38,791 bases of DNA, taken from Lachnospiraceae bacterium (lineage in GTDB: Bacteria; Bacillota; Clostridia; Lachnospirales; Lachnospiraceae). Shown here in pieces: positions 18,517 to 34,618 of the stretch (the stretch's first letter is position 1; the number at the start of each line of letters is the position of its first letter). Location: the NCBI GenBank assembly GCA_910575255.1, contig CAJTEM010000040.1, forward strand, positions 1 to 38,791, written 5' to 3'. The notes beneath the pieces were generated by a model, which worked only from the letters and a program-made list of their open reading frames with translations, searched no databases and was not told the DNA's origin. The position numbers and the translations under genes are program-made.

Positions 18517-19293
18517 GTGGAACTGTTAAAAGAATTATACGCATACCGTGAAATGATTATCAGCCTGGTAAAAAAAGATCTCAGAGGACGCTATAAAGGA
18601 TCTGTCCTCGGATTTCTGTGGACATTCATCAATCCATTGCTCCAGCTGGTGGTTTATACTATTGTTTTTTCTGCCATTATGAGAGCCGGCATTGAAAAGT
18701 TTTACATGTTTTTGTTCGTTGCTTTAGTGCCATGGATATTTTTCAGTGCTTCTATTACAGGTGGCTCCATGGCCATATTGGCTCAGCAGGACATGGTTAA
18801 GAAAATATATTTTCCCAGGCAGGTTCTTCCGATTGCCTATGTGACCAGTTCTTTTGTCAATATGTTGTTTTGCTTTATCATTATTTTTGCGGCATTAATG
18901 GTTTCCGGTATCGGAATTAATTTTTACGCATTACTTTTTTTGCCTCTTATCATGGCGGTAGAATATGTGCTGGCTATGGGGATTGCCATGCTTTCTTCTG
19001 CATTAACCGTGTATTTCCGGGATTTGGAACATATATTAGGGATTGTTACCATGGCCTGGCAATATCTGACCCCCATAATGTATCCTATGGATATTGTTCC
19101 GGAAGAATTCCTGCCTGTATTTTACGCAAACCCCATGACTCCGATTATCGTTGCCTATCGAGATATTTTGTACTACAAAAAAGTACCTGAAATCAATACC
19201 TTATTACATGCAAGTGTTTTGGGAATTATTATTTTGTTGCTTGGAAATATTGCGTTTACCAGATTACAGCGGGACTTTGTGGAGGAGTTATAG
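18517..19293 (+). CDS. ABC-2 polysaccharide exporter permease (Wzm/TagG type)
   Basis: This 258-aa membrane protein has six predicted spans and the family opening RYKGSVLGFLWTFINPLLQ, seen in TagG, RfbA and Wzm permeases. It moves a completed lipid-linked polysaccharide across the membrane using the ATPase encoded next. The start is GTG at 18517, with AGGAG ahead of it. The stop is two bases before the start of the ATPase fusion gene, so the two are made in equal amounts. Its presence means the polymer is exported by an ABC transporter rather than a Wzx/Wzy route. Confidence 0.92.
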   Translation: MELLKELYAYREMIISLVKKDLRGRYKGSVLGFLWTFINPLLQLVVYTIVFSAIMRAGIEKFYMFLFVALVPWIFFSASITGGSMAILAQQDMVKKIYFPRQVLPIAYVTSSFVNMLFCFIIIFAALMVSGIGINFYALLFLPLIMAVEYVLAMGIAMLSSALTVYFRDLEHILGIVTMAWQYLTPIMYPMDIVPEEFLPVFYANPMTPIIVAYRDILYYKKVPEINTLLHASVLGIIILLLGNIAFTRLQRDFVEEL

Positions 19294-19295
19294 AA

Positions 19296-22200
19296 TTGGA
19301 AGCAGGAAATGCAATCGAAGTCAAAAATCTGAAGAAAAAATTCAAGGTATTTTATGATAAAGGAAGCAGCCTGAAAGAGAAGCTTCTGTTTACCAAAAGA
19401 AATCAATTTGAGGATCGCTGGGTTATCAATGGAATCAGCTTTCATATAAAAAAGGGAGAGGCGGTCGGTTTAATCGGGAAAAACGGATGCGGAAAAAGCA
19501 CAACATTAAAAATGCTTACCAAAATCATGTATCCAACTTCCGGAAGTATCGAGGTGTGCGGGCGCGTGTCCAGTTTGTTGGAATTAGGCGCCGGGTTTCA
19601 TCCGGATATGAGCGGAAGAGAAAATATTTATATCAATGCTTCTATCTTTGGCCTTACCAAAAAAGAGATTGACCGCCGAATCAGCGATATTATTGCATTT
19701 TCGGAGTTGGAGGACTATATCGATAATCCAGTCAGAACCTATTCCTCGGGGATGTACATGAGGCTGGCTTTTTCTGTTGCAATCAACGTAGATGCGGATG
19801 TGCTCCTGATTGATGAAATCCTTGCCGTAGGGGATATCAGCTTTCAGACAAAATGCTTTGAGCGTCTGGAAGAAATCAAAGAATCCGGCACAACTATTGT
19901 TATTGTCTCCCACTCCATGGGACAGATTGAGCAGATCTGTGACCGGGCCATCTGGATTGAAGATGGTCTGATCCGGGAAGATGGTCTGCCCGGACCGGTG
20001 AGCCGACACTATCTTGCGTCCATGGAAGAGAAAAGACTGGCCAAGCTGGCCGATGCAGAAAACAAAAAAAATTCAGAAGAAAATGAAAGTCAGACCAGCT
20101 ATTCCTGGCTCCCGGAAGGGCTCCCAAACAAAGAGTCTTCTGCAAATAAAAAAGCAACCTCCAAAGAAGGAGAAAAAACTGTTCTGGGTGAAAATGAAAA
20201 TACCGGTTATCGGAATGACGTGGTTGTTGTACAGCACGCTCAGAACTGTCTTCAGGCAATTGAAAATATTCAAATTACCCAAAAGAGCAGAGTCTACAAA
20301 ACAGGGCTTATTATCCGACGCTTTTTTGTCCAATTTTTCAAAGAAGGGGAATCGGCGGATTTTATAAAATGGGGTTTGGGAAAACTTATAAAAAAGGATT
20401 TTCATACAAGATATTTGTGTGATTTTGACTATTTGGAAAATACCAGACAATACCTTATTTCTCGAAAGCATTCTGTTAATGAAAATGTAGGCGAAAACAT
20501 TTCGATGGTAAGAAAGGAAATGTCATCTGTCATTATATTTGCATCCGTCCCTTATTTTGATGTGGGGGGCGGACAGCGTTCTGCACAAATGGCGAAAACC
20601 TTTAACAGTTTAGGATATCAGGTTCACTATATATATGGCTTTGATTGCTCGGAGGAAAATGTCCCTGATATGTTTATTCCGGCCATAACTCATAAAAAGG
20701 TGGATGAGATCCATCCCGGATGGTTTAAAAGCGTTATCACTCCCCAAAGCATTGTGATATTCGAGATTCCTTATAAAAAATTCAAAGATTATCTTACGAT
20801 TGCGAAAAGGTTTGGGTGTTATACCGTATATGAGCATATCGATAATTGGGCGACTTCTCTTGGGAACCTGTTTTATGAGGAAGAGGTTTTTAGAACATTT
20901 ACAGAGCAGGCGGATCTGATTACAGTAACAGCCAGACTTCTGGGGGAAAAGATCGGAGAAGTTACTGCGAGAGAATATTTATATTTGCCAAATGCGGTCA
21001 ATACTGAGCTTTTTGAGCCTTCAAAGAACTATGACTGCCCTAAAGATCTGGTACTTGCACGTAAAGGCGGAAAGACACTTTTGTATTTCGGTTCTTTATG
21101 GGGAGAATGGTTTGATTGGGAAAAGATTGAGTTTATATCGGAACAGTGCAAAGACTGCCAGATCAATCTGATTGGCGATTATTCAGGAATAAGGGAACGA
21201 ACATCTTCCATAGGGCGAAATGTTCACTTTTTAGGATTAAAAAAACAAAGTGAATTACCAGCATATTTAAAGTATGCAGACATCGCACTTCTTCCTTTTA
21301 AAAACTGTGAGATTGGGAAATATGTGTCGCCCTTAAAGATTTTCGAATATATTGCCATGAACAAAAAGGTCATAGCGGCGGCTCTGGATGATATTCAGAA
21401 TTATCCGAATGTCTGTTGTTCTGATAATAAAGAAGACTGGGTGAAACTGATAGCACAGGAAACTCCTGTTGTTGATGCAAGCGGATTTACTGACAGTAAT
21501 AACTGGTTCGCCCGATGCGGAGAGCTGATTAAACGTGCCGCTTCTCAGGAAAGAACACACAAGAAGATCTCTGTCGTTATCCTGAATTACAATAACCGCA
21601 ATGTTATTGAGCGGTGTGTCAATACCTTGGCAGCACATAACAGCCGTTACTCCTATGAAATTATTGTAGTTGACAACGGAAGTACAGATGGTTCCTTTGA
21701 GTTTTTAAAAGAAACCTATGGAGAGAATATATTGCTGCTGCAAAACAATAGAAACGGTTGCTCTTCCGGAAGGAATCTGGGGGCAGCACAGGCAAAAGGT
21801 GAATATCTGTGTTTTCTTGACAGTGACCAGTGGGTGATCAGCGACTATTGGTTAGACAGTGCGCTTCAGATACTGGAAAGCAAAGAATACGTGGGCGCTG
21901 TGAGCTGGAACGCGGGATGGTTTGCCCTAGGAGAAACCACAGGTCCTATTGTAGACGGATTTGCGAATCGGAGTATGGACAATCCTGCTGCCTGGTTCCG
22001 GTTGGATATCGCTTACCTGGCCACAAGCGGGTTGCTTATGGAAAAAAAACTGTTTGAGGATATCGGCGGATTTGATACGTATTATGATCCTACCTGCTAT
22101 GAAGATACCGATCTTTCCTTAAAAATCCGTGATTTTGGTCTCGAGATAGCTTATTGTCCATACATGTCCATTATGCATCTGCCGCATCAGACAACGAAAT

Positions 22201-22301
22201 CAGGCAGTCCCTATCATACCGAACTGATGAATAAGAATGGCAACTATTTTTATGAAAAATGGAAGAAAAGGAATCCGGAATTATTAGAATACTATCTATA
22301 A
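19296..22301 (+). CDS. Exporter ATPase (Wzt/TagH type) fused to GT4 and GT2 domains
   Basis: This 1001-aa protein carries three enzymes. Residues 1-245 are an ABC ATPase: Walker A GKNGCGKST (61-69), signature YSSGMYMRL (149-157), Walker B LLIDE (170-174), His206. A charged, low-complexity linker (about 245-300) and a helical spacer follow. Residues about 409-745 are a GT-B lobe pair beginning VIIFASVPYFDVGGGQRS and ending in FKNCEIGKYVSPLKIFEYIA. Residues 756-1001 are a GT-A family 2 domain with Asp842-Ser-Asp844. Start is TTG at 19296 after GGAGGAG, two bases past the permease stop. Typical Wzt proteins carry a sugar-binding C-terminus here; enzymes in its place are unusual. Both transferase domains look intact. 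Confidence 0.88.
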   Translation: MEAGNAIEVKNLKKKFKVFYDKGSSLKEKLLFTKRNQFEDRWVINGISFHIKKGEAVGLIGKNGCGKSTTLKMLTKIMYPTSGSIEVCGRVSSLLELGAGFHPDMSGRENIYINASIFGLTKKEIDRRISDIIAFSELEDYIDNPVRTYSSGMYMRLAFSVAINVDADVLLIDEILAVGDISFQTKCFERLEEIKESGTTIVIVSHSMGQIEQICDRAIWIEDGLIREDGLPGPVSRHYLASMEEKRLAKLADAENKKNSEENESQTSYSWLPEGLPNKESSANKKATSKEGEKTVLGENENTGYRNDVVVVQHAQNCLQAIENIQITQKSRVYKTGLIIRRFFVQFFKEGESADFIKWGLGKLIKKDFHTRYLCDFDYLENTRQYLISRKHSVNENVGENISMVRKEMSSVIIFASVPYFDVGGGQRSAQMAKTFNSLGYQVHYIYGFDCSEENVPDMFIPAITHKKVDEIHPGWFKSVITPQSIVIFEIPYKKFKDYLTIAKRFGCYTVYEHIDNWATSLGNLFYEEEVFRTFTEQADLITVTARLLGEKIGEVTAREYLYLPNAVNTELFEPSKNYDCPKDLVLARKGGKTLLYFGSLWGEWFDWEKIEFISEQCKDCQINLIGDYSGIRERTSSIGRNVHFLGLKKQSELPAYLKYADIALLPFKNCEIGKYVSPLKIFEYIAMNKKVIAAALDDIQNYPNVCCSDNKEDWVKLIAQETPVVDASGFTDSNNWFARCGELIKRAASQERTHKKISVVILNYNNRNVIERCVNTLAAHNSRYSYEIIVVDNGSTDGSFEFLKETYGENILLLQNNRNGCSSGRNLGAAQAKGEYLCFLDSDQWVISDYWLDSALQILESKEYVGAVSWNAGWFALGETTGPIVDGFANRSMDNPAAWFRLDIAYLATSGLLMEKKLFEDIGGFDTYYDPTCYEDTDLSLKIRDFGLEIAYCPYMSIMHLPHQTTKSGSPYHTELMNKNGNYFYEKWKKRNPELLEYYL

Positions 22302-22344
22302 ATTATGGATCTCTCAGAAATGAGATTCACATGGGAGGATGAGG

Positions 22345-25300
22345 ATGAAAAAGGCAACTGGCCGATACCCGCTTATCAGCATTATTATCCCTTCCTGTAA
22401 TGCCGAGGAATATATGGAACGAAGTGTTGATTCCGTTATAAAACAAACCTATGAACATTTGGAAATTATCTTAGTTGATGACAGCTCCCTGGATTCCAGT
22501 GGGGCTATCTGTGATGTGCTTCAAATCCGGGATCAAAGAATTCGTGTGATACAGGAAAAGGGCGGAGGAGTAGCCCGGGCCAAAAATGCGGGGATAGAAT
22601 CCAGCCATGGCGAATATCTGATGTTTGTAGAAGGTGGGGATTGGCTGGATGAAGATGCTGTGGAGATTTTGTTTGAGTTATGCATGGATTATGATGCAGA
22701 TATCGCAGAGTGCCAATACAGAGAGATTATCTCCGAAACAAGAGCCAAAAGACAATGTAACACAGGAACTGTTACCCTCTTTGACCATAAATCCGTTTTG
22801 GAAAACATGCTGGATGAGGATCGTTTTCAGTCAATGGCATGGGGGAAGTTATACAAAAGAGAGACGATAGGCGAGATCCGTTTTCCCATAAATAAATTAA
22901 ATGAAGATGAGTTTACCGTTTATAAGTATGTCTGCAATGCCAGGAATTTTGTTCACATAGATCTGATTAAGTACAATAAGAATTGCATGCTTTCTCCAGG
23001 TAATGCAGAAAAACAGGATTTTAAAAATATTCATGCATATGAAGCGATTGCAGAGAGAAAGGAATTTCTCAAAAATCAGGGAATTCAATTGCCGGAGGAA
23101 GAAAGGGATTCAGAGGCAGGAGCGGCTGCATCATGGCTCCAGACATTGCCGGATAATGTCTGTGAACGAACTTATGATGAGATCCTTCTTGAAAATCAGG
23201 CATTGCAGCTTCAGATTAATGCGTTGCTGAATTCAAGAACCTGGAGATATGCGGAAAAGGTAAAGAATATTTTGGGAATTAAAAAGATTGTTCCCATCCT
23301 GAAACGTGCCAAAAGAAAATTATTGAACCAGGAAATGCCGCAAGCTTTGCCGGAAACTTATCCGGTACATAATCCAGCCAATACAGCAGAGACTGTCTCA
23401 GAAAAACCAGGCACAGAATTTGATTATAATCATCTGTTAAGTAAAGCAGAATATAAATTTTTTCAATATAAAGATACAAGGGACAGGCAATATCCTCTGG
23501 ACATCGCAAAGATTGAATGTCCCTTTAAAAGAGGATTGGTATCTGTTGTCCTTCCTGTATATAACGGAGAAGATTATATCGAAGCTTCGATAAAAAGTGT
23601 ATTGAATCAGACTTATAAAAGCTTTGAACTGATCATCATTGATGACGGTTCAACAGACAATACCGCCAATATTGTAGATCATTATGCTGCGCAGGATTCC
23701 CGGATACAGGTAGTCCATCAGCAGAATATCCGATTGCCCAGGACTCTTTCCAAAGGTTTCCGGATGGCTCAGGGGGAATTCTATACCTGGACCAGTGCGG
23801 ATAACATCATGCATGAAGAATTTCTGGAACGCTTCGTGAAAGAATTACAGGACAATCCCTCATTAGGAATGACCTGGGGAAATATGCGCCTGATTGATGA
23901 GTACGGCAATCCGATTGTCGATAATCAATGGTATCCCAATGCTGAATATCCGGAAGAGGTACTGTTCCCATCAAGTGTGTTAGAGCTGAACGTGGTTGCG
24001 AATAATTACATTGGCGCAGCATTTATGTACAGAGCCATATGTGCTCATATTGTTTTGGATTATTCATCCTATAAGTTCTGTACAGAAGACTACGACTATT
24101 GGATGAAGATTAATGAAATCTGCAGTCTGAGGCATACATCATTTACAGAACCACTGTACTCCTACCGGTTTCATCCCAATTCCTTAACTTCAAAGGATAA
24201 AGAATTTAAGATAACGGAAAACCGTTATAAGCTTATGCTTTTAGATGATTTCAGAAGAGATTATTATCTGAAGCCTCTCATTTGGATCTTCAACGGCGAT
24301 GCGGAAAGTCATCCCTGGTATCAGCCAATGAAAACCCTCATTGAACAGGCAGGACATTTTATTGTGGACTATAAGTATGCATCCTGTCTGGAAAATAATC
24401 TTTATGAAAGAATTATTGCAGTTAATTTTGAAAAAGAATATGAGGAATGCGGTTTGGACAGGATACCGGATTCCTACAACGTATTGGTTTCTAAAGACAG
24501 CAAGGTCTTAAAGGAAAACTGGGACTGCTGTATCGTGGCAGAATCCGTTGGCACTGCAGGCAGATTAGACGGATACCAAGGCTGGTATAAAATTGCTGAT
24601 TGCAGAACCTGTTTTTCGTTTTTAGATGCCAAGGCAAAAACAAAGTTTTTATATGCTCTGGAAGCAGAAATGGATTCCCAAAAGCAGGAAGCAGCAACAA
24701 TTTCCGTTATTTTACATGATACTGGGAATCAGGAAATGCTGGACAGATGCCTGCAGTCAATAGCGAATCAGGAGGGATGTTCAGAGGTTGTTCTCATTAA
24801 GCAGTCCACAGAAAAAATGGGATTTTCTCAGGAACTGCAGAAATCAGATGAATTAGGTTTGAATATAAAGGTTATACAATGTGTGTCTTCCAATGTAGCA
24901 ACTCAGATAAACATGGGGATCTGGCAAAGCACCGGAGATATTCTGGTCTTTGGTGAGGATGACTACCTTTTCGATGATCATTATTTTATAAACCTGAAGA
25001 AAATGATGTCTCAGAATCAGGTAAAAGCTGTCTGCGGATCTGTAAAATGCAGAAATAATAATTCTGAGCAGAAACGGATTTTATTAGGAGAACACAGATT
25101 TTATACGGATGGATTGGCAGATACACCGGAAAGAAATTATGCACTCAATATTTCAGTAAAACGGGATGAAGTGCTAATGGCCGGAGGACTGTACCATTTA
25201 TCGCCAGAGCTAAATGATGAATGTATAGAAGCCTCTTTGTTCGGCTTATTGCAGATCATCTGCCAGAACAGACCAAAGTCCATTTTCAAAAGCAGGGCAT

Positions 25301-26553
25301 GTTCTGTGTATCGCCAGAAATTGGAATTGCCGGTAGAAACAAGCACCTGGATGTGTTCCCGGTTATTGGGGTTTTACCGTCTGGGAACTCAATTGCTCCT
25401 TCCCTGTGATTCTTATCCGGAAACTGTCAAAGCAAACCCGGCCAAGCTCGATGAAGCAATCCTGGAATTTATGTTACAAAATATCCGGGATGATTTTACG
25501 CAAAGGTCACAGGCAGACTGGATCCGAAGGTATTATTCCGGTATTAAAATGCCTTTCATTTCTGTTATTATTCCAATTTATAATACAGAAAAGGAATTGG
25601 AGAGATGTATCGAATCCTGTATTCATCAATCATTGAGGAATATTGAGATTATTTTGGTTGATGATGGTTCCTGGGACAACAGCGGAAAACTTTGTGATCA
25701 ATATGCACAAAAGGATAATCGGATTAAGGTGCTTCACAAAAATAACGGCGGCCTTTCTGATGCAAGAAATGCAGGATTGGATCTTGCAGATGCTCCTTAT
25801 ATTATGTTTGTTGACAGTGACGACTGGATTGACCTGGATATGTGCGAGACCTTATATACGCTGGCAGTGGAGAAGAATGCAGATATTGTAGAATGCAGTT
25901 ATCGCAATGTTTACCCAGATCGGATCGAAGAAGAGACGGATAACAGCGGTGAGATCATAGAAGGTGATGCGATATTTGCTCTGAAGGAGCAACTCCAATG
26001 GAAACACTTTAAATCAGTGGCATGGAATAAATTGTATCAACAGAAAATCTTTGCAGACGGAAAGAGATACCCAAAGAACAAATATCATGAGGACGAATTT
26101 TTTACCCATCTGGCTTTTTATGCTGCAAAAAAGTTGGTTTCTGTGGATTTTTCCAAATATAACTACTGGCATGGGCGTGCTGACAGTATAACAGGAAAGG
26201 TCAATGAAAATATTTTGGACAGCTGCTATGCATTGCGTTCCCGGGTTGATTTTGTGATGGAAAACAAAATTACACAGCTGGAACATGATGTAAAGGATGT
26301 GTGTTGCTGGACGCTTTTTGACCGGCTCTACCGATGCTATCAGGCGAAGCTGTCTCCTGACAATGAAAAGCTAAGGAGACTTTTGGCAGATCTGGAAAGT
26401 GATAAGGATAATGTGCTAAGTTGGGATGTTGCAGAGGAATATAAGACGAATTATAAGATTTTGCTGAGATCCTATGAGTTGTTTGGCAAGTGCAGGGAAG
26501 ATGCAGAATTGTATGAGGAGATGCGGAAGGAGGTTGAAAAGGAAAGTTTATGA
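22345..26553 (+). CDS. Giant multi-domain glycosyltransferase with four GT-A-like units
   Basis: About 1402 aa if it starts at ATG 22345, which sits six bases after GGGAGG (22333-22338); an in-frame ATG at 22339 touches that site and is less likely. Unit 1 (about 10-225) has VDD but FVEGGDW where FVDSDDW is expected. A helical link follows with LNSRTWRYAEK. Unit 2 (about 399-650) has IDDGSTDNT and TSADN. Unit 3 (about 783-1000) is degenerate, with FGEDD in the metal-binding position. Unit 4 (about 1070-1290) is complete: VDDGSWDNSG and Asp1157-Ser-Asp-Asp-Trp. At least units 2 and 4 could be active, so it could lay down more than one linkage of a repeat. It ends in ATGA overlap with the next gene. 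Confidence 0.85.
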   Translation: MKKATGRYPLISIIIPSCNAEEYMERSVDSVIKQTYEHLEIILVDDSSLDSSGAICDVLQIRDQRIRVIQEKGGGVARAKNAGIESSHGEYLMFVEGGDWLDEDAVEILFELCMDYDADIAECQYREIISETRAKRQCNTGTVTLFDHKSVLENMLDEDRFQSMAWGKLYKRETIGEIRFPINKLNEDEFTVYKYVCNARNFVHIDLIKYNKNCMLSPGNAEKQDFKNIHAYEAIAERKEFLKNQGIQLPEEERDSEAGAAASWLQTLPDNVCERTYDEILLENQALQLQINALLNSRTWRYAEKVKNILGIKKIVPILKRAKRKLLNQEMPQALPETYPVHNPANTAETVSEKPGTEFDYNHLLSKAEYKFFQYKDTRDRQYPLDIAKIECPFKRGLVSVVLPVYNGEDYIEASIKSVLNQTYKSFELIIIDDGSTDNTANIVDHYAAQDSRIQVVHQQNIRLPRTLSKGFRMAQGEFYTWTSADNIMHEEFLERFVKELQDNPSLGMTWGNMRLIDEYGNPIVDNQWYPNAEYPEEVLFPSSVLELNVVANNYIGAAFMYRAICAHIVLDYSSYKFCTEDYDYWMKINEICSLRHTSFTEPLYSYRFHPNSLTSKDKEFKITENRYKLMLLDDFRRDYYLKPLIWIFNGDAESHPWYQPMKTLIEQAGHFIVDYKYASCLENNLYERIIAVNFEKEYEECGLDRIPDSYNVLVSKDSKVLKENWDCCIVAESVGTAGRLDGYQGWYKIADCRTCFSFLDAKAKTKFLYALEAEMDSQKQEAATISVILHDTGNQEMLDRCLQSIANQEGCSEVVLIKQSTEKMGFSQELQKSDELGLNIKVIQCVSSNVATQINMGIWQSTGDILVFGEDDYLFDDHYFINLKKMMSQNQVKAVCGSVKCRNNNSEQKRILLGEHRFYTDGLADTPERNYALNISVKRDEVLMAGGLYHLSPELNDECIEASLFGLLQIICQNRPKSIFKSRACSVYRQKLELPVETSTWMCSRLLGFYRLGTQLLLPCDSYPETVKANPAKLDEAILEFMLQNIRDDFTQRSQADWIRRYYSGIKMPFISVIIPIYNTEKELERCIESCIHQSLRNIEIILVDDGSWDNSGKLCDQYAQKDNRIKVLHKNNGGLSDARNAGLDLADAPYIMFVDSDDWIDLDMCETLYTLAVEKNADIVECSYRNVYPDRIEEETDNSGEIIEGDAIFALKEQLQWKHFKSVAWNKLYQQKIFADGKRYPKNKYHEDEFFTHLAFYAAKKLVSVDFSKYNYWHGRADSITGKVNENILDSCYALRSRVDFVMENKITQLEHDVKDVCCWTLFDRLYRCYQAKLSPDNEKLRRLLADLESDKDNVLSWDVAEEYKTNYKILLRSYELFGKCREDAELYEEMRKEVEKESL

Positions 26554-27900
26554 GTAATGTTATTGCAAGTTTAAAAAAGAAGATCAAAATTATTCTATTC
26601 TTATTTGTGCTCTTTATTTCCTTAAAGGTAATAGCATATAGACTTCCTTCTGAATTAGTCAGAAAAAATATTGAAATGTCATACGGGCAGCTCGAAGAAG
26701 AGGGATTATATCCGCAGATGTTTTATCACAATGATTCTTCTCAATTTTGTGGCTTAAAATTGGATAACTGGTCAGATGCAATTTATTTAAATGTAGCGTA
26801 TCTGGCAAATGAAAAAAATGTATTTAAAGCAATTGCTGGAGATTTCCTGGGTGAAAACCCTGATGGGGGGGGGCGATCCTATACAAGATCTAAAATATAC
26901 ATTGGAAACTGCTTCTTATAGCAATGGCAACGGTATAAATGAGAATACCTATATGCGACAGTGGTTTGGCAGCCAGGTTATATTCAGGCCATTGCTTTGT
27001 TTATTTACACTGTCGGAGATCCGTATGATTTTTCAGTATTTAGTAATATTGCTTTCTGGTATCTCCGTAATGACCATTGGGAAATTGGGAAAAGCACCTG
27101 CCGTCAGTTTTTTGATTGGTATTTTAAGCGCGAACATTGTAATTGTGGGTTCTTCTTTGAATTTTATTGGTACATTTTTAGTTGTTTTGACTGCAGCAAT
27201 TATTATTCCATCATTAAAACAGGATTTTCAAGTGGCAGATTTTATGATAGTCATTGGAGGCACGACGGCGTTTATGGATTTATTTGCCACTCCATTTTTA
27301 ACATTTCCAATGGTCACATTGCTATTGATTATTAAGAAAAATCATTCGAATCAATGCAATACGTTAAAGCAAGGATTTATATTGCTTTTCCAAAGTGCGA
27401 TTGGATGGCTTTCTGGTTATGTTATCCTTTGGATGGGAAAATGGTTGCTTGCATCTGTCGCGTTAAATACTAACTGTTTTTTAGATGCATTCAATGAATT
27501 TGTAAATGCAGGAACAATGAGACCTGATTATGGTCCACAAACTACAACAGGAATGATTCGTGAAAGTTTGAGGCTTAACTTTAGTGCTATATTTCCTGTT
27601 AATCTCCTGCAGATCTTAAATGAAAAATATTCAATTCACATAGAATTCATTATTATATTGCTAATAATTCTATGGGTAATTGTTAATTTCATTTTATACA
27701 AAAAAGGATATATTAAGTTAAACAATAATGGATATTTGTTCTGTGTAATATTGATGATGCTTTCACCTTATGTATGGTATCTATTTATTAATGCACATTC
27801 GTTTGTCCATTTTTGGTTTAGCTATAGAAGCCAATGTGCCACGATATGTTCCGTTTCATTGTTATTGGGTACGACATGGACTAAAAATAATAATGATTAG
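26550..27900 (+). CDS. Phase-variable polytopic membrane protein (GT-C-like), currently out of frame
   Basis: Two halves of one gene lie in different frames. From ATG 26550 the first frame runs 123 codons and stops at 26921. The second frame, to 27900, carries five or more membrane spans. They meet at nine G (26865-26873). With eight (or eleven) G the halves join as D-GGG-DPIQDLKYTL and give 449 aa. The N-terminus is a signal-anchor-like span (13-30), then a large loop, as in GT-C transferases or membrane acceptors of sugar side chains; I do not recognise the family. As written the product is a 123-aa truncated form. It overlaps the previous gene by four bases. Confidence 0.75.
26865..26873 (+). 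repeat. Poly-G tract of 9, frame-breaking
   Basis: Nine consecutive G in the coding strand of the 26550 gene, at codons 106-108. Loss of one G (or gain of two) restores the downstream frame. Confidence 0.9.
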
Positions 27901-27913
27901 GAGAGGAATAATT

Positions 27914-28935
27914 ATGAATTATGGAATTGAATTTTGGAGATTCATATTTACATGTATTGTTTGCCTGTTGCATTTTGAAACCGTCTATTTGGGGGGGGCA
28001 ATAATATCTTTGCTAGTGGCTATTTGGGAGTGGAATTTTTCTTTATCTTATCTGGCTTTTTTATGATGAGACATGCGCTGCATCATGATGATACAGCAAT
28101 AAGATATATAACAGATAGAATAAAGAGGCTTTATCCTCCAATAATAATTGCCTATTGCATTTTAATTATAAATTTTAGCATACAATCTAAGTGGAATGTT
28201 TTTGAAATTATTGATGAAGTATATGCACATATATGGGAGTTTCTATTACTTACTTCTACAGGAATTACATGGGAATTCTGGAACTTTGCTACATGGTATA
28301 TTTCAGCACTTTTGATTGTGAGTTATTTTATCTATTGGCTAATTAAAAAGGATGAAAAATGTTTTTCGGAATTTATTGCTCCCCTTTTAATCTTTGCAAT
28401 TTATTCCTGGTATGCAATTCAAGGAAAAGGGTTAGATTACCATGTGCACTGGGAACGAATTTGTACTTCAGCAATCAGCAGGGCTATTGGTGGAATATCA
28501 ATAGGATGTATTTCATATTATGTGAACAATAAATATATTCCTAAGAAAATAAATAAATATTATTGCAGTTGTATTGAAATAATTGTTCTTATACTGATTT
28601 TTTCTAATATTATTTGTGCAGAAAAAAATAGTTATAATTTGTTGGTTCTTATTCTATTTCCTGTTTTAATAGTTATCGAATATAATAAATGGAATAAATG
28701 GAATGAATTTTTTTGCAATTATATCGTAACACTACTGGGAAGAATTTCGATAAATATGTACTTAAATCAGGTGTTTTTTATCGGATTATTTCTGAATATT
28801 CACAAAAAAACCAATGTGCTTTTGGATTATTTATTATTCATAGTTTGTCTTACTTTGTTTGCATGCTTTATAGAATTTTTACGGTATAAGATTATAAAAA
28901 AATCAATGAAACTATTTTGCACTAAGAAAATTTGA
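27914..28935 (+). CDS. Phase-variable acyltransferase (family 3), currently out of frame
   Basis: Start ATG 27914 after AGGAGAGG. The first frame begins MNYGIEFWRFIFTCIVCLLHFE, typical of membrane acyltransferase 3 enzymes (IEFWRF...LH), and stops at 28066. After eight G (27991-27998) the other frame continues the family signature NIFASGYLGVEFFFILSGFF, with about nine membrane spans to 28935. With nine (or six) G the join is YLGGGNNIFAS and the protein is 340 aa. The active histidine (LLHFE) would be in the first part. Such proteins O-acetylate, or add other acyl groups to, surface sugars. As written, a 50-aa fragment is made. Confidence 0.85.
27991..27998 (+). repeat. Poly-G tract of 8, frame-breaking
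   Basis: Eight G in the acyltransferase gene, at codons 26-28. Gain of one G (or loss of two) restores the frame. Confidence 0.9.
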
Positions 28936-29090
28936 GGGACTTTTCAGTTTTATTAAATATATTTTGATTTTTTGAAATCATTACAAAATATCTAAAAACT
29001 TGCAGAAGGAACTAATATAATAAAGAGCAGTAAACGTTACATCTCGGATATAACTGCGGAAAACAGATAAGAGCTAATATGGAGGTGTCT
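28936..29090. other. AT-rich gap before the 29091 gene
   Basis: A very AT-rich stretch holding TATAAT at 29016-29021 but no credible -35 box at 16-18 bases upstream. A weak internal promoter is possible. No terminator hairpin was seen. Confidence 0.35.
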
Positions 29091-30311
29091 ATGAATAAGA
29101 AAAATTTGACGTATTGTAAAAGATTTATATTTAACGTGTTGTTTCTGATTACAGTCATAAGATTAATTTGGAATTTCCTTTATGGATTTCGCTGGCCTTC
29201 AGAATATGTTCTATCTAATAATATTTTTACCTATGAATATGGTTTTATACCAAGAAGTTTAATAGCCAGTTTTTTAAAACTTTTATTTGGTAATCTCATA
29301 TATGATAGAAAATTTTTATATGTTCTTATAGTTGGAACAGGGATATTATTACTATCCTTTTTTTGCTATTTATCTTATTTTTTTACAATTAAAACTCAGA
29401 ACATTGTTGGAAGCCTTCTTGTTTTTTGGTATTCATTAAGTATATACAGTGCTTATATTGCACATGAAATGGGATATTTCGAACAATATGGATATGTTTT
29501 TTTGTGTGGACTGATACTATTTTGTGCAAAAATCAAGAGCGTCCTTAAATTTTCTATCCTCTGCTCCGGTTTAATGTTCATCTCATTATTGATAAGTGAA
29601 ACAAATGCTTTTCTTGTGTGCCCGGTACTGCTTTCAATAACCCTTTTAAACACCTTTGAAAATATGCCTGTAGTGGATTTTGAGGGGGGGGGGGGTAAAA
29701 GAGTATTTCGTTGTCTGATACAGACTATATGTGTTAATATTCCCAATATATTATACTGTATCTGTGTCAATTATATCAGAGTTCCTCAGGAAATAATTGG
29801 AAAACAGCTATCACTAATTCGGGAAAATTCTGATAAGTTTCAAAGACTGGATGAGATAGGTGCATATTTTTATGGTGATCGAACAGCAAGGGAATATACA
29901 GACCAGATATTATTCAGGGATGAAAACTGGCAATTGATGGCATATATGTTCCTGATAATATTTACAGTAACATTAGTTCTGATTTTTAACCGTAATTATC
30001 AAAAGGCATTTTTATTTATTGCTGCAAGCGGTTTTGTAATTGCTTGCGGATATACATTAAATTTTATTGCCTGGGATGCTGAAAGGTATAAATTTGGCCA
30101 GGCAATGATGGTGACCTTTTTAGGAATATGGACGTTTAAAAAGATTGAATCTGCAAAGATTATTTTGAATAAAGACTTGTTATATACATTAGTCATTGGC
30201 ACTCTTATTATGGCTGCAATAATGGATTATAAGTTAGGACTATTTGATGGTGCAGAATATAATAACAGCATAATGCGTCTGAAAGATACGCTTAGTGCTT
30301 ACAATTTCTAA
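29091..30311 (+). CDS. Polytopic membrane protein with a poly-G tract, in frame
   Basis: GGAGG at 29081-29085 places the start at ATG 29091 (406 aa) rather than at 29079. About nine or ten membrane spans follow, with motifs such as WPSEYVLSNN and YEYGFIPRSLI. These are similar in style to GT-C sugar transferases and polymerases, though I cannot name the family. Twelve G (29684-29695) encode Gly199-202 in FEGGGGKRVF, and the frame is open on both sides. A change of one or two G would stop translation soon after. In this copy it is the only one of the four long-tract genes in the ON state. Its place beside a GtrB-like synthase suggests a side-chain transferase. Confidence 0.75.
   Translation: MNKKNLTYCKRFIFNVLFLITVIRLIWNFLYGFRWPSEYVLSNNIFTYEYGFIPRSLIASFLKLLFGNLIYDRKFLYVLIVGTGILLLSFFCYLSYFFTIKTQNIVGSLLVFWYSLSIYSAYIAHEMGYFEQYGYVFLCGLILFCAKIKSVLKFSILCSGLMFISLLISETNAFLVCPVLLSITLLNTFENMPVVDFEGGGGKRVFRCLIQTICVNIPNILYCICVNYIRVPQEIIGKQLSLIRENSDKFQRLDEIGAYFYGDRTAREYTDQILFRDENWQLMAYMFLIIFTVTLVLIFNRNYQKAFLFIAASGFVIACGYTLNFIAWDAERYKFGQAMMVTFLGIWTFKKIESAKIILNKDLLYTLVIGTLIMAAIMDYKLGLFDGAEYNNSIMRLKDTLSAYNF
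29684..29695 (+). repeat. Poly-G tract of 12, in frame
   Basis: Twelve consecutive G, the longest run in the window, spanning codons 198-202 of the 29091 gene. The frame is open in this copy. Confidence 0.92.
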
Positions 30312-30354
30312 ATTCTACCACCCCTAATATAATCTTACTGAATAGGAGTTGCAA

Positions 30355-31287
30355 ATGGAGAAAATATCTATAGTAGTACCTTGTTATAATGAAGAAGAAA
30401 CAATTTTTTTGTTTTATAAAGAAATCATTTCTTTAAAGGAATTCTTTGATCAAAATAATTTAATTGTTGAAATTTGTTTTGTCGATGACGGAAGCATTGA
30501 TGATACCTTAAAAGAAATAAAAAAAATCAGGGAATACGATATTGGTGTACATTATATTACCTTTTCCAGAAATTTCGGAAAGGAAGCTGCTCTATATGCT
30601 GGATTAAACATGTCTACTGGCGATTATATTATCGTTATGGATGCAGACCTTCAAGATCCGCCAGAGATTATACCACAAATGTATCATTTGATGAAACAGG
30701 AAAATTGCGATTGTGTTGCGACCAGAAGAACAGACAGACAGGGCGAACCGCCAATACGTTCCTTTTTTGCTAAATTGTTTTACAGAATTATTAATAAAAT
30801 ATCGGATACCAAAATCGTTGATGGTGCCAGAGATTTCAGGATTATGACACGTATAATGGTAAATGCTATTCTGGAAGATAAAGAATACAATCGATTTTCA
30901 AAAGGAATATTTAGCTGGATTGGATTTAAAACAGCCTGGCTGGAATTTAATAACAGGGAAAGAATTGCCGGAGAAACGAAATGGTCATTTAGAAAATTAT
31001 TTTTATATTCCATAGAAGGACTGCTAGCATTTTCAACAGTTCCGCTTTCTGTTTCATCTATGGGGGGTCTGCTTTTTTGCAGCTTGTCGATTTTTCTGCT
31101 AATATTTGTGATCGTCCGGGCATTATTATTCGGGGATACTGTTGCTGGATGGCCATCGCTGGTAAGTATTATATTATTTCTTAGTGGTATTCAACTGTTT
31201 TCTATTGGTGTTATTGGATTATATTTGTCAAAAATCTATTTGGAGACAAAACGAAGGCCGCTCTATATAATTAAAGAGCAACAATAA
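30355..31287 (+). CDS. Polyprenyl-phosphate glycosyltransferase (GtrB/DPM1-like)
   Basis: This 310-aa GT2 enzyme moves a sugar from a nucleotide donor to undecaprenyl phosphate on the inner membrane face. The start ATG 30355 lies six bases after AGGAG (TTG 30349 is also in frame but has no spacing). Motifs: VVPCYNEEETI, FVDDGSIDDT, DADLQDPPE with Asp96 and Asp98, and the family pattern GARDFRIMTR. Two C-terminal membrane spans (about 232-255 and 265-295) anchor it. A run of six G (31062-31067) is in frame. It is the expected donor maker for the GtrA-type flippase encoded at 37247 and for the polytopic proteins around it. Confidence 0.92.
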   Translation: MEKISIVVPCYNEEETIFLFYKEIISLKEFFDQNNLIVEICFVDDGSIDDTLKEIKKIREYDIGVHYITFSRNFGKEAALYAGLNMSTGDYIIVMDADLQDPPEIIPQMYHLMKQENCDCVATRRTDRQGEPPIRSFFAKLFYRIINKISDTKIVDGARDFRIMTRIMVNAILEDKEYNRFSKGIFSWIGFKTAWLEFNNRERIAGETKWSFRKLFLYSIEGLLAFSTVPLSVSSMGGLLFCSLSIFLLIFVIVRALLFGDTVAGWPSLVSIILFLSGIQLFSIGVIGLYLSKIYLETKRRPLYIIKEQQ

Positions 31288-31338
31288 GTTATATGAGCAG
31301 ATATTACAGAACGATAATTTTATACGAGGGGGAACAAT

Positions 31339-32957
31339 ATGAAAAAAAGTAATAAGGAACAATCTCGATGCTATGTATTCAGTTTGATCATTTCCCTGTA
31401 TATCGTCTTCATTAGTTTCTTTTTAGAACGGTTGTGGTTTGATATGGACTCGTTAAAAAATCATTTTATGATATACACTGTTTCCAAAATACTTCTGTTT
31501 GGTTTGAGCTTTATGATGTGCTTTTCATTTCAGAAGCTCAAAAAAAATGGATATCTAAGTTTTTTTGTTGGTTATACAGGGATCATGTGGATTATGCTGC
31601 TTTTAGTCTGGCCAGGTGTCTGGCGCTGGGATGAATTCTGGATTTTGGATGGAAGCAGGTACTTCATTCCGAATTCCTATCAGCATTGGCTTACCTCTGT
31701 GTTATATATAGCAAGCCTGATGATTCTTCCGTTTCCCACAGGTGTCATTATCGTACAGATATTGCTAATTTCATTTTTGGTATCTTTTATTATCAAAACA
31801 ATTAATGAGAATTTTTTGCATTTGAGTAATTGGACTAAATGGATATTGCTTATTCCCTTTTTACTTTTTCCAGTAATTGACAGCAATTTGTATCCTGTGA
31901 GGTGTTCTCTATATGCTTTTGCTGAACTGGCTTTTATAACATTCCTGATTAATGAGATTTTTAACAGAAAAAGGGATCCAGAATACATGATAACGCCAAA
32001 CGCAACAGGGATATTTTGCTGTTTGAGTATTCTCTTAGCTGTCTGGAGAAGCGAAAGCATTTACTATCTGGTTCTTGCTCCTATATTATATATGCTCATT
32101 TTTAAAGGAAAAACTCAAAAAATAAATTTGCTTTTGCTTATAGGCGTTATGGGGGGGGCAGTTTATTCGGAATAAAATATCAGAACAAACTTCTTTATGA
32201 ATCAATTGGAGACCAGAATACAGTTATCATAACTTTGCCTTATATTGAATATGCACTTCATAATGAAGTTTTATCAGAGGAGGATACTATATTAGAAGAA
32301 ATTAATCGTGTTATTGACCTGAAATTACTTTGTGATGAGGGCAAGGGCGTGATATGGGATAGCAGTAAAAATCTTATTAGAAAAGATTATACAAAAACAG
32401 AATACCGCAGATATCTTTTCTCTTATATAAAATTGATTTTCATGTACCCACAGGATTTTCTTAGAGTGCAGATTCCGGTTGTTCTACAGGCAAATGGCAT
32501 GTGTTCAAGTGGTCAGTTTATAGAGAGCACAGAAAATTTATATACTAATGAAGGGAATTACTCTACAGAAACTATAGGAGAGGTTTTCTTTAGACATGAT
32601 TTCACGCGACCTGTTTCAGTCAACTTAAGGAAAAACGTTATAACAATTTTAGAAACACTGGAAGTTAATAAATTCTTATGGTTATTACATAAAATCACGT
32701 ATAACGCATTTATTCCTATACTAGGACTGATCTTTATTATTGTCTGGTGTTTTAGAAAAAAGCTGTATTTAATATCTGGCATTTTGTGTTCGTCATTGAT
32801 AAAAATACCCATATTAATATTATCCATACCGGGAACCGCTTTTATGTATTGGTATCCCAATTATCTGGTAGCCTGGACGGTTGTAATTATATTTTTGATC
32901 TATCAATTGAAACACATAATTAACATTAGGAAGGAAAAACACAAGAATGAACAATAA
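31339..32957 (+). CDS. Phase-variable large membrane protein (GT-C-like), currently out of frame
   Basis: The first frame (31339-32175) has about seven membrane spans, and the second frame (to 32957) supplies an extracellular-like domain and further spans. They meet at eight G (32151-32158). With nine (or six) G the join reads VMGGGSLFGIKYQNKL and gives 539 aa. The first half has WPGVWRWDEFWILDG after the second span, a W/D/E-rich first loop like GT-C enzymes that use lipid-phosphate sugars. As written a 278-aa fragment ends in GGAVYSE. Start follows GAGGGGGAAC. The last bases overlap the next gene by 11. Confidence 0.8.
32151..32158 (+). repeat. Poly-G tract of 8, frame-breaking
   Basis: Eight G after the ATG codon at 32149 in the 31339 gene (codons 271-273). 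One more G (or two fewer) restores the frame through to 32957. Confidence 0.9.
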
Positions 32958-33765
32958 AACCCTGCTATTTATCCCTGGCTACAACTGCGAAAAGCAGATC
33001 CCCCGGGTACTGGATCAACTAGACAGCGACATCCTGCCCTACATCTCCCAAACCATCATGATAAATAACCGCAGTACGGATAATACGGAAGCCACTGTAA
33101 AGACATGGATGGCAGCACACCCGGAGATTCCTTTCACATTGCTTCGGAATGACGAAAATTACGGTCTGGGCGGCAGCCATAAGGTTGCATTCGACTATGC
33201 CCTTAACAATGGTTTTGACTATGTAATAGTCCTGCACGGGGATGACCAGGGGAATATCCATGATCTGCTTCCAATTTTAAAGCGAAAGCTCTTCCGGAAA
33301 TATGACTGTTGCCTGGGTGCCCGCTTTATGAAGGGTTCTGTTTTGCAGGGATACTCCCGTTTTCGAACCTTTGGCAATAGAGTATACAATTTTTTGTTTT
33401 CCCTTATCTGCAGATTCAAGGTAAAGGATCTGGGATCCGGACTGAATATGTACCAGACATCCATGCTCCGGACAAGATTCTATATGAAATATCCGGATAG
33501 TCTTATGTTCAATTACTGTATGGTTATGGCAATTCGGCATTACAAACAGAAAGCTCTCTTTTTTCCTGTAAGCTGGCGAGAAGAGGATCAGGTTTCTAAT
33601 GTAAAGTTGTTTGATCAGGCTAAAAAAGTTCTAATGATGCTGGGCAGTTATGCTTTTGCACCGGGAAAATTCATGAAAAAAGAATTACGGGATACCATAA
33701 GAGATTCCTATTCCGCACAGGTGATTGCGGAAAACAAAGCGTCAGAGGATGAAAATGAAAAGTAA
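32947..33765 (+). CDS. Glycosyltransferase family 2
   Basis: This 272-aa GT-A enzyme starts at ATG 32947 after AGGAAGG and overlaps the preceding gene by 11 bases. Motifs: LFIPGYNCEKQIPRVL, INNRSTDNTEAT and HGDDQGN, with Asp99-Asp100 as the metal site. No membrane span is clear, so it is probably cytoplasmic or peripheral. The GC content rises again here compared with 26550-32940, marking the right edge of the AT-rich block. The resemblance is to DPM-like soluble transferases; sugar donor and acceptor are not determinable. Confidence 0.88.
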   Translation: MNNKTLLFIPGYNCEKQIPRVLDQLDSDILPYISQTIMINNRSTDNTEATVKTWMAAHPEIPFTLLRNDENYGLGGSHKVAFDYALNNGFDYVIVLHGDDQGNIHDLLPILKRKLFRKYDCCLGARFMKGSVLQGYSRFRTFGNRVYNFLFSLICRFKVKDLGSGLNMYQTSMLRTRFYMKYPDSLMFNYCMVMAIRHYKQKALFFPVSWREEDQVSNVKLFDQAKKVLMMLGSYAFAPGKFMKKELRDTIRDSYSAQVIAENKASEDENEK

Positions 33766-34618
33766 AAAGTATTATAGCATTAATATTACCGTATTCCTTA
33801 TGGCAATCCTGTTTTTTTACCATGCCATAGGCACAGGAATCCGCTTACTCTATTTAAAAGATGATTGGAATATGGTACTATTCCTGGGAACATTTTTTGC
33901 CATTCTTGTGTATGGTATAAAAGCGCTTCGTTTATATATTATCCTGTTGGAGAAACGGCTGGCATTGGCAAGTTTTATCAGACTGTACATAAAAACCACC
34001 CTTATCAATCTGGTGTTTCCTTTTAAGCTGGGTGAAATTTTTCGGATGTATTGTTATGGCATCGAATTCAAAAATTATAAGAGAGGCTTTTTGCTGATAC
34101 TGATTGACCGTTATTTTGATACGCTTCCCCTTTTGCTTCTTTTACTGGTGTCAACGATAGGAGAAAAAAATCAGGTGTCCGGTGTTGTGGCAGTATTGTG
34201 CGTATTCATAATATTAGTCACTGTATTCTATTGGATTTTTCCTTCTACCTATAAGTATTTAAACCGTTTTTTGATTATGAATATCGAGTCGGACAGGGGG
34301 ATTTTAGCATTGGATATGATCAGGAAGGCTCAGAACTGGTATCTGTATGCAAAGGAATTAATCCGGGGGCGGGAGGCCATTTTACTGGTTCTCTCCGGTT
34401 GCGCCTGGTTGGCTGAATATGCCATGTTATACAGCCTGGTTATCGGAAGCGGGCGCATTTTTAAGGCAGAGAACTTTGTATCTTATATGAATGCTGTCTT
34501 TACAGGAAAATCCAATGAATATGTAGATATATATATCTGCATGAGTGGTTTGATACTTGCGGTTTGCGCAGGTTTTGCCTACGGCAGGCTTTGGTTTGTA
34601 AAAAAGGAGCGATCATGA
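33755..34618 (+). CDS. Flippase-like membrane protein (UPF0104/AglD-MprF TM family)
   Basis: This protein of about 288 aa has seven or eight membrane spans. ATG 33755 lies six bases after AGAGG (33744-33748); the longer frame beginning at 33725 has no ribosome binding site. Conserved features of the lysylphosphatidylglycerol-synthase transmembrane family are visible: a Leu-rich first half with RLYIKTTLINLVFPFKLGE, and RYFDTLPLLLLLL. Such proteins may move lipid-linked sugars or act in lipid transfer. It overlaps its upstream neighbour by 11 bases and its downstream neighbour by four (ATGA), placing it firmly in the operon. Confidence 0.75.
   Translation: MKSKKYYSINITVFLMAILFFYHAIGTGIRLLYLKDDWNMVLFLGTFFAILVYGIKALRLYIILLEKRLALASFIRLYIKTTLINLVFPFKLGEIFRMYCYGIEFKNYKRGFLLILIDRYFDTLPLLLLLLVSTIGEKNQVSGVVAVLCVFIILVTVFYWIFPSTYKYLNRFLIMNIESDRGILALDMIRKAQNWYLYAKELIRGREAILLVLSGCAWLAEYAMLYSLVIGSGRIFKAENFVSYMNAVFTGKSNEYVDIYICMSGLILAVCAGFAYGRLWFVKKERS

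Follow-up and report, generated by a model that had tools for sequence, protein, structure and literature searches.

We report here on a polysaccharide locus of a Lachnospiraceae bacterium in which four genes for polytopic membrane proteins each carry an internal run of 8 to 12 G. The locus lies on contig C40, analysed at its full length of 38,791 bases (hereafter the window), of a genome assembly of 5.14 Mb in 106 contigs that is 96.7% complete. Very probably the four runs are best explained as slipped-strand simple-sequence contingency loci. We infer that long G runs would gain or lose bases reversibly through slippage during replication, and each change of length would put the part of a surface-polysaccharide enzyme encoded beyond the run into or out of frame, with an effect on the glycan. 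Of the four membrane proteins, one of them an acyltransferase, single cells would make varying combinations, and the assembly would have captured one such state, in which a single gene is in register and the other three are out of it. Congeners have similar runs in promoter spacers and a flagellin leader as well as in genes for glycan-modifying enzymes and choline-binding-type surface proteins, and these would be further sites of this kind. Directly seen are the runs themselves, which are clustered and in excess, the breaks of frame at them, and homologous sites that differ in register or length.

The four runs (G9, G8, G12 and G8) are the only G runs of at least 7 on the + strand of the window, and all of them lie in the coding sense of their genes (Table 1). 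An earlier note on this DNA had listed four in-gene runs of 8 to 12 G in an otherwise AT-rich block; its coordinates and lengths were exact, and the block 26550-32957 has a GC content of 31.9% compared with 41.5% for the whole window. In a first-order Markov simulation 0.03 runs of 8 or more were expected per block and none of 300 trials reached four, while permutation of codons within genes gave an expectation of 0.0255 (0 of 2000 trials reached four). Set against the 31 runs of 8 or more genome-wide, four runs within 6.4 kb correspond to a Poisson P of 9e-8, a post hoc figure. The length of the G8 runs alone is not exceptional in this genome (13 runs of length 8 versus 52 of length 7); these runs are marked out by their AT-rich surroundings, clustering and frame break, not by their length. 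The only C runs of at least 7 on the + strand of the window, C10 and C7, both lie within 22 bases of the contig end. The flank of the C10 run (1-10) is identical over 195 bases to a site elsewhere in the genome (contig C6, L037:3053-3062), so that this contig end is a repeat carrying a G/C run.

In three of the four genes the change of frame is confined to the run. Both halves are open in different frames, with 105 + 345 codons at 26865, 25 + 314 at 27991 and 270 + 268 at 32151, and neither half contains any other break; the G12 run lies within a single open frame of 410 amino acids. Thus, the description in the earlier note of three genes out of frame and one in frame holds. The A/T runs of the window serve as an internal control: of 32 such runs of at least 7, 31 fall in listed open reading frames (ORFs), and 31 of these 31 lie inside the open frame. 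Tract gene 2 is a membrane O-acyltransferase whose 314-codon downstream piece covers positions 47-323 of the Acyl_transf_3 profile, while the 25 codons from the ATG at 27914 to the run supply, in the other frame, the part that precedes the profile match. Several strongly hydrophobic, membrane-like stretches occur in each of the four genes; a Pfam scan gave no family for tract genes 1, 3 and 4 (for gene 4, none at 0.001). The label of membrane-enzyme genes that had been given to all four is fair in this light.

Table 1. Poly-G runs, the genes that carry them and neighbouring genes of the locus (GT2, family 2 glycosyltransferase; Gly, glycine).
Feature	Position	Strand	Remarks
G9 tract	26865..26873	+	Gene halves out of register across the run
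G8 tract	27991..27998	+	After codon 25 of the acyltransferase; out of register
G12 tract	29684..29695	+	In register, read Gly-Gly-Gly-Gly
G8 tract	32151..32158	+	Out of register
Tract gene 1, polytopic membrane protein	26550..27900	+	Pieces 26550-26921 (105 codons before the tract) and 26863-27900 (345 codons)
Tract gene 2, Acyl_transf_3 membrane O-acyltransferase	27914..28935	+	Pfam PF01757, E 3.1e-16
Tract gene 3, polytopic membrane protein of 410 amino acids	29079..30311	+	Carries G12, open throughout
GT2 between tract genes	30349..31287	+	Intact; Pfam PF00535, E 6.5e-33
Tract gene 4, polytopic membrane protein	31339..32957	+	Pieces of 270 and 268 codons
ABC-2 membrane subunit	18517-19293	+	Context
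ABC ATPase fused to glycosyltransferase domains	19296-22301	+	Context
Four-domain GT2 protein	22339-26553	+	Context
GT2 protein and LPG_synthase_TM membrane protein	32947..34618	+	Context, Pfam

Across the genome there are 31 runs of 8 or more and 83 of 7 or more, distributed as 52 of length 7, 13 of 8, five of 9, eight of 10, two of 11 and one each of 12, 16 and 18. The fall-off from 7 to 8 is normal, and there is an excess at lengths of at least 10. A second polysaccharide locus, on contig C32 (58.5 kb), holds seven runs of 8 or more (Poisson P 1e-7, post hoc) and encodes rhamnan synthesis protein F, GT2, DUF6020 and AlgX-like proteins. By a looser ORF rule, four of these seven runs are in register and three are out, one of the latter (7223) being ambiguous as a 508-codon frame also spans it. 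A repeated non-coding element carries G8-G18 at or near its start, both in this genome (L032, L035, L036, L039, L040, L043, L045) and in the congener G004 (L085, L089, L090, L091). No Rfam family was matched where the non-coding runs lie; elsewhere in those loci the only matches were tRNAs and a cobalamin riboswitch.

When the protein sequence on either side of every run was compared all-against-all, three pairs aligned on both sides. The first spans two species: L057:15652 (G003) has G11 and is out of register, L097 (G005) has G9 and is in register, and the two are 51% identical downstream. In the second, L065 (G003, out of register) and L083 (G004, in register) both have G10 in proteins that are 83% identical, with a net two-base difference beside the run. 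The third consists of G003 paralogues, L069 (out of register), a choline-binding-repeat protein, and L075 (in register), in which the run follows a signal-peptide-like start. In the genome of the window itself, two AlgX-like neighbours on C32 (L050), G8 out of register and G9 in register, align from the run onward (28%). The earlier note had suggested that relatives be searched for the same genes with tracts of other lengths; this was borne out at homologous sites elsewhere in the genus, but not for the genes of the window, where the three relatives of the G12 protein have no Gly run. A search of viral_contigs gave no match to a strain variant of the G12 site. A further site, in two species, is where a MaoC-like domain ends: L070 has G10 there and L093 has G14, and the two align as far as the run. 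In L093 the frame continues through the G14 into a short-chain dehydrogenase domain, and the run there may join or separate two domains.

Some runs lie in candidate promoters. Promoters of the porA/opc type in Neisseria carry a G tract in the spacer between -35 and -10, and a G run is likewise found between such hexamers at G005:C141, G005:C206 and G021:C28; unlike those of Neisseria, the present promoters are putative, and the sites belong to congeners, joined by one in the genome of the window (L041) that was recognized by eye. The pattern of TTGACA, a short gap, G8 or more and TATNAT was found at five distinct sites in 3 of 24 genus genomes, and the reversed pattern in 0 of 24; one of the five (G010), next to a very G-rich stretch that is masked, is doubtful. 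The hexamers of L105 and L108 match at 11 and 12 of 12 positions with a spacing of 16, the count of promoter-like sites there being no higher than in shuffles. The window has no promoter-spacer G run. At L041 the hexamers TTGACG and TATAAT, separated by 19 bases that include G10, precede a gene whose product looks secreted and has a choline-binding repeat below threshold. In L047 and L095, from two species, homologous genes are preceded by the same TTGACA-15-TAAAAT-like stretch, which includes G10 and has a spacing outside the range of the scanner.

A third position is the untranslated leader of flagellin genes (Pfam), at L165, L166, L176, L167, L168 and L181 (G005, G003 twice, G021, G012, G004). 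The leader run is G9 and G6 in the two G003 copies, which are separate loci, and G7 in G021, with flanks 91-95% identical; G005 has G11 and G012 has G9, the flanks there being 79-89% identical, and the run of G004 is a G9 at a contig end. The run adjoins a possible hairpin. One flagellin copy of G018 and the matching flagellin locus of the window's own genome (L174) have no leader run.

A first alternative to contingency loci places the effect of the runs in expression: RNA polymerase slippage or ribosomal frameshifting would give every cell a fixed mixture of products with no change in its DNA. Long homopolymers do slip during transcription as well. Nevertheless, homologous sites differ at the DNA level in both register and run length, and promoter-spacer runs cannot act through the reading frame, which makes this explanation unlikely.

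Frame breaks were compared between run types under one rule set in loci of four congeneric run-rich genomes (G000, G003, G004 and G005, that of the window included). The stretches of G003, G004 and G005 were taken around listed runs, and the genomes are run-rich ones among those listed rather than a random sample; frames were called by open-frame rules, loose ones first and stricter ones with controls later. We examined 108 of the 112 G/C runs of 8 or more, four being dropped for lying less than 300 bases from a locus end, and 42 fell in neither class. Among those located in genes, 43 are in register and 23 are out (23/66), whereas for gene-located A/T runs of 8 or more the figures are 61 in and one out (1/62; Fisher P 4e-7). 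Of 6000 positions drawn at random, 4979 are in register and 194 are out (194/5,173 gene-located). The out-of-register share climbs with the length of the G/C run, from 24/422 at length 5 through 5/70 at 6 and 3/14 at 7 to the value above at 8 or more, and the coding strand carries G in 53 of the 66 gene-located runs of that class.

These counts bear on a second alternative, namely that sequencing or assembly has misjudged lengths at G homopolymers, the true genes being intact and the runs fixed in length. Homopolymers are error-prone, and contig ends do coincide with runs (base 1 of the window; G004:C114, which ends in G9). Such errors would have to spare the A/T runs, just one of which breaks a frame, and they cannot account for the excess of long runs, of differing lengths, at homologous sites in several species; we hold this alternative to be quite unlikely. 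Third, the three broken genes might be decaying pseudogenes of an accessory locus, with the frameshift at the G run by chance. The genes are accessory and fast-evolving and have few relatives, as would suit decay, but both halves of each are fully open, the fourth gene is open through its G12, and G-run breaks are several-fold above background in the four genomes. Chance decay is thus very unlikely. A need of the proteins for poly-glycine, with the G runs as incidental codon choice, can hardly be entertained and was rejected: a few runs do occur in Gly-rich linkers (L042), but GGG makes up 80 of the 552 Gly codons (14.5%) in intact window ORFs, the Gly run is missing at the G12 position in all three aligned relatives of the G12 protein (L114, 41% identity; L115, 35%; L053, from another genus of the family, 30%), and genes out of register would be useless.

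Several points weigh against reading the runs as contingency loci. The register calls are ORF heuristics with a background of about 4-6%, and frame calling by codon usage over 20-40 codons is too weak to decide register. The L069/L075 pair is the weaker for the fact that beyond the run its in-register partner, L075, stays open for only 47 codons. Of the 31 runs of 8 or more in the window's own genome, 11 are outside genes by the looser ORF rule, several of them in the repeated non-coding element. Close homologues of the window's tract genes are lacking, the G12 protein being found in 1 of 24 genus genomes (its own) and in 3 of 299 family genomes. MutS is encoded in 23 of the 24 genus genomes, including this one, so a repair defect does not explain the slippage, and loss of mismatch repair was rejected as a cause. 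Furthermore, each species is represented by one consensus genome, so that the comparisons span species or separate loci, not cells or strains. The earlier note had seen in one in-frame and three out-of-frame genes what a mixed switch population would show; the states themselves are as described, but a mixture within the population is beyond what a consensus assembly can show. Its reading as phase variation is nonetheless supported, and contingency loci remain the best explanation.

A last point against concerns scope. Runs of 9 occur in all 24 genus genomes, with 1 to 67 overlapping matches each; in the family, any run of 10 is found in 67 of 200 genomes and 20 or more overlapping matches in 9 of 200, overlapping matches not being the same as runs (much of the G130 count, for example, is one long run). 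In stretches of G169, G142, G164 and G130, from four other genera and picked from listed places, 40 runs of 9 or more gave 21 in frame, four out and 15 neither. An excess of frame breaks for the whole family was therefore rejected, and it stands as a finding for this genus. In G169 (1.6 Mb, 68% complete), 22 runs of G9-G11 were seen at L129-L146, of which 16 lie within long open frames and are in register, a pattern that differs from that of the genus.

The kinds of genes that bear runs were surveyed with Pfam in 73 of 79 tract-bearing pieces, after visual inspection had removed seven loci that looked non-coding, Gly-rich or doubtful. The best 25 of 65 families are led by Acyl_transf_3 (5), GT2 (5), Hexapep (4), Methyltransf_11 (4), Asn_synthase (3), ALGX (3), MBOAT (2) and GtrA (2). 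As controls, 73 of 99 ORFs near non-coding runs were used, and none of those families is among the 25 of 147 listed for them. Since tract genes cluster in glycan loci, the tract-bearing pieces are not independent. By their families, the run-bearing genes are predicted to make surface structures.

In the window, tract gene 1 starts in overlap with the stop of the glycosyltransferase gene before it, and the intact GT2 gene that stands between tract genes 3 and 4 contains T7 and A8 runs with its frame unbroken. The locus also holds further glycosyltransferases and a UDP-GlcNAc 2-epimerase. With the ABC-2 subunit, the fusion of ABC ATPase and glycosyltransferase, the GT2 proteins and the epimerase, its product is most likely an ABC-exported wall polysaccharide.

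In Campylobacter jejuni and Neisseria, G/C runs of about 8-12 lie in surface-glycan genes, several per genome and in mixed register states. The present runs resemble them in length, in their position inside surface-glycan genes, in their number per genome and in their mixed registers; they differ in belonging to a Lachnospiraceae-like genome with MutS and in being known from consensus sequence alone. Homopolymeric-tract contingency loci of these two groups are treated, for example, in PMC3025981 and PMC3068675. A gut commensal with an intragenic G tract is already on record in Bifidobacterium breve, for which PMC9187656 describes a pilus switch with replication slippage both proposed and measured. 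That case, as given there, concerns an actinobacterium and sortase-dependent pilus clusters, whereas ours concerns polysaccharide enzymes at many loci in another phylum; the Pfam matches of the scanned window genes are glycosyltransferases, an acyltransferase and a transporter. Heritable switching of surface polysaccharides in gut bacteria by invertible promoters and other invertons is cited in PMC11868660, but invertons work by DNA inversion through recombinases, and what is proposed here is a change of run length. Two 2025 reviews of commensal glycans (PMC12355684, PMC12413058) name invertible promoters or Bacteroides capsule variation. The mechanism is already known; a search of the open-licence literature turned up no account of homopolymer contingency loci for Lachnospiraceae, absence from which is not absence from print.

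Taken more widely, and with less confidence than for the four runs themselves, this commensal genus probably has a multi-locus poly-G phasome that would act at three levels: the reading frame of polysaccharide-modifying enzymes and choline-binding-type surface proteins, the spacing within promoters of genes for secreted surface proteins, and the G run of a structured flagellin leader. Each cell would then carry its own combination of glycan, surface proteins and flagella. A 2025 review (PMC11868660) calls the apparent restriction of many-locus phase variation to pathogens a major open question. If the contingency-locus explanation is true, the dozens of poly-G runs that this commensal genus has on surface genes would speak against such a restriction, and the question could be tested in a group that can be cultured. 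Genes that are switched off would be called pseudogenes in metagenome assemblies and strain comparisons, and clonal switching may govern how these commensals interact with antibodies and phages.

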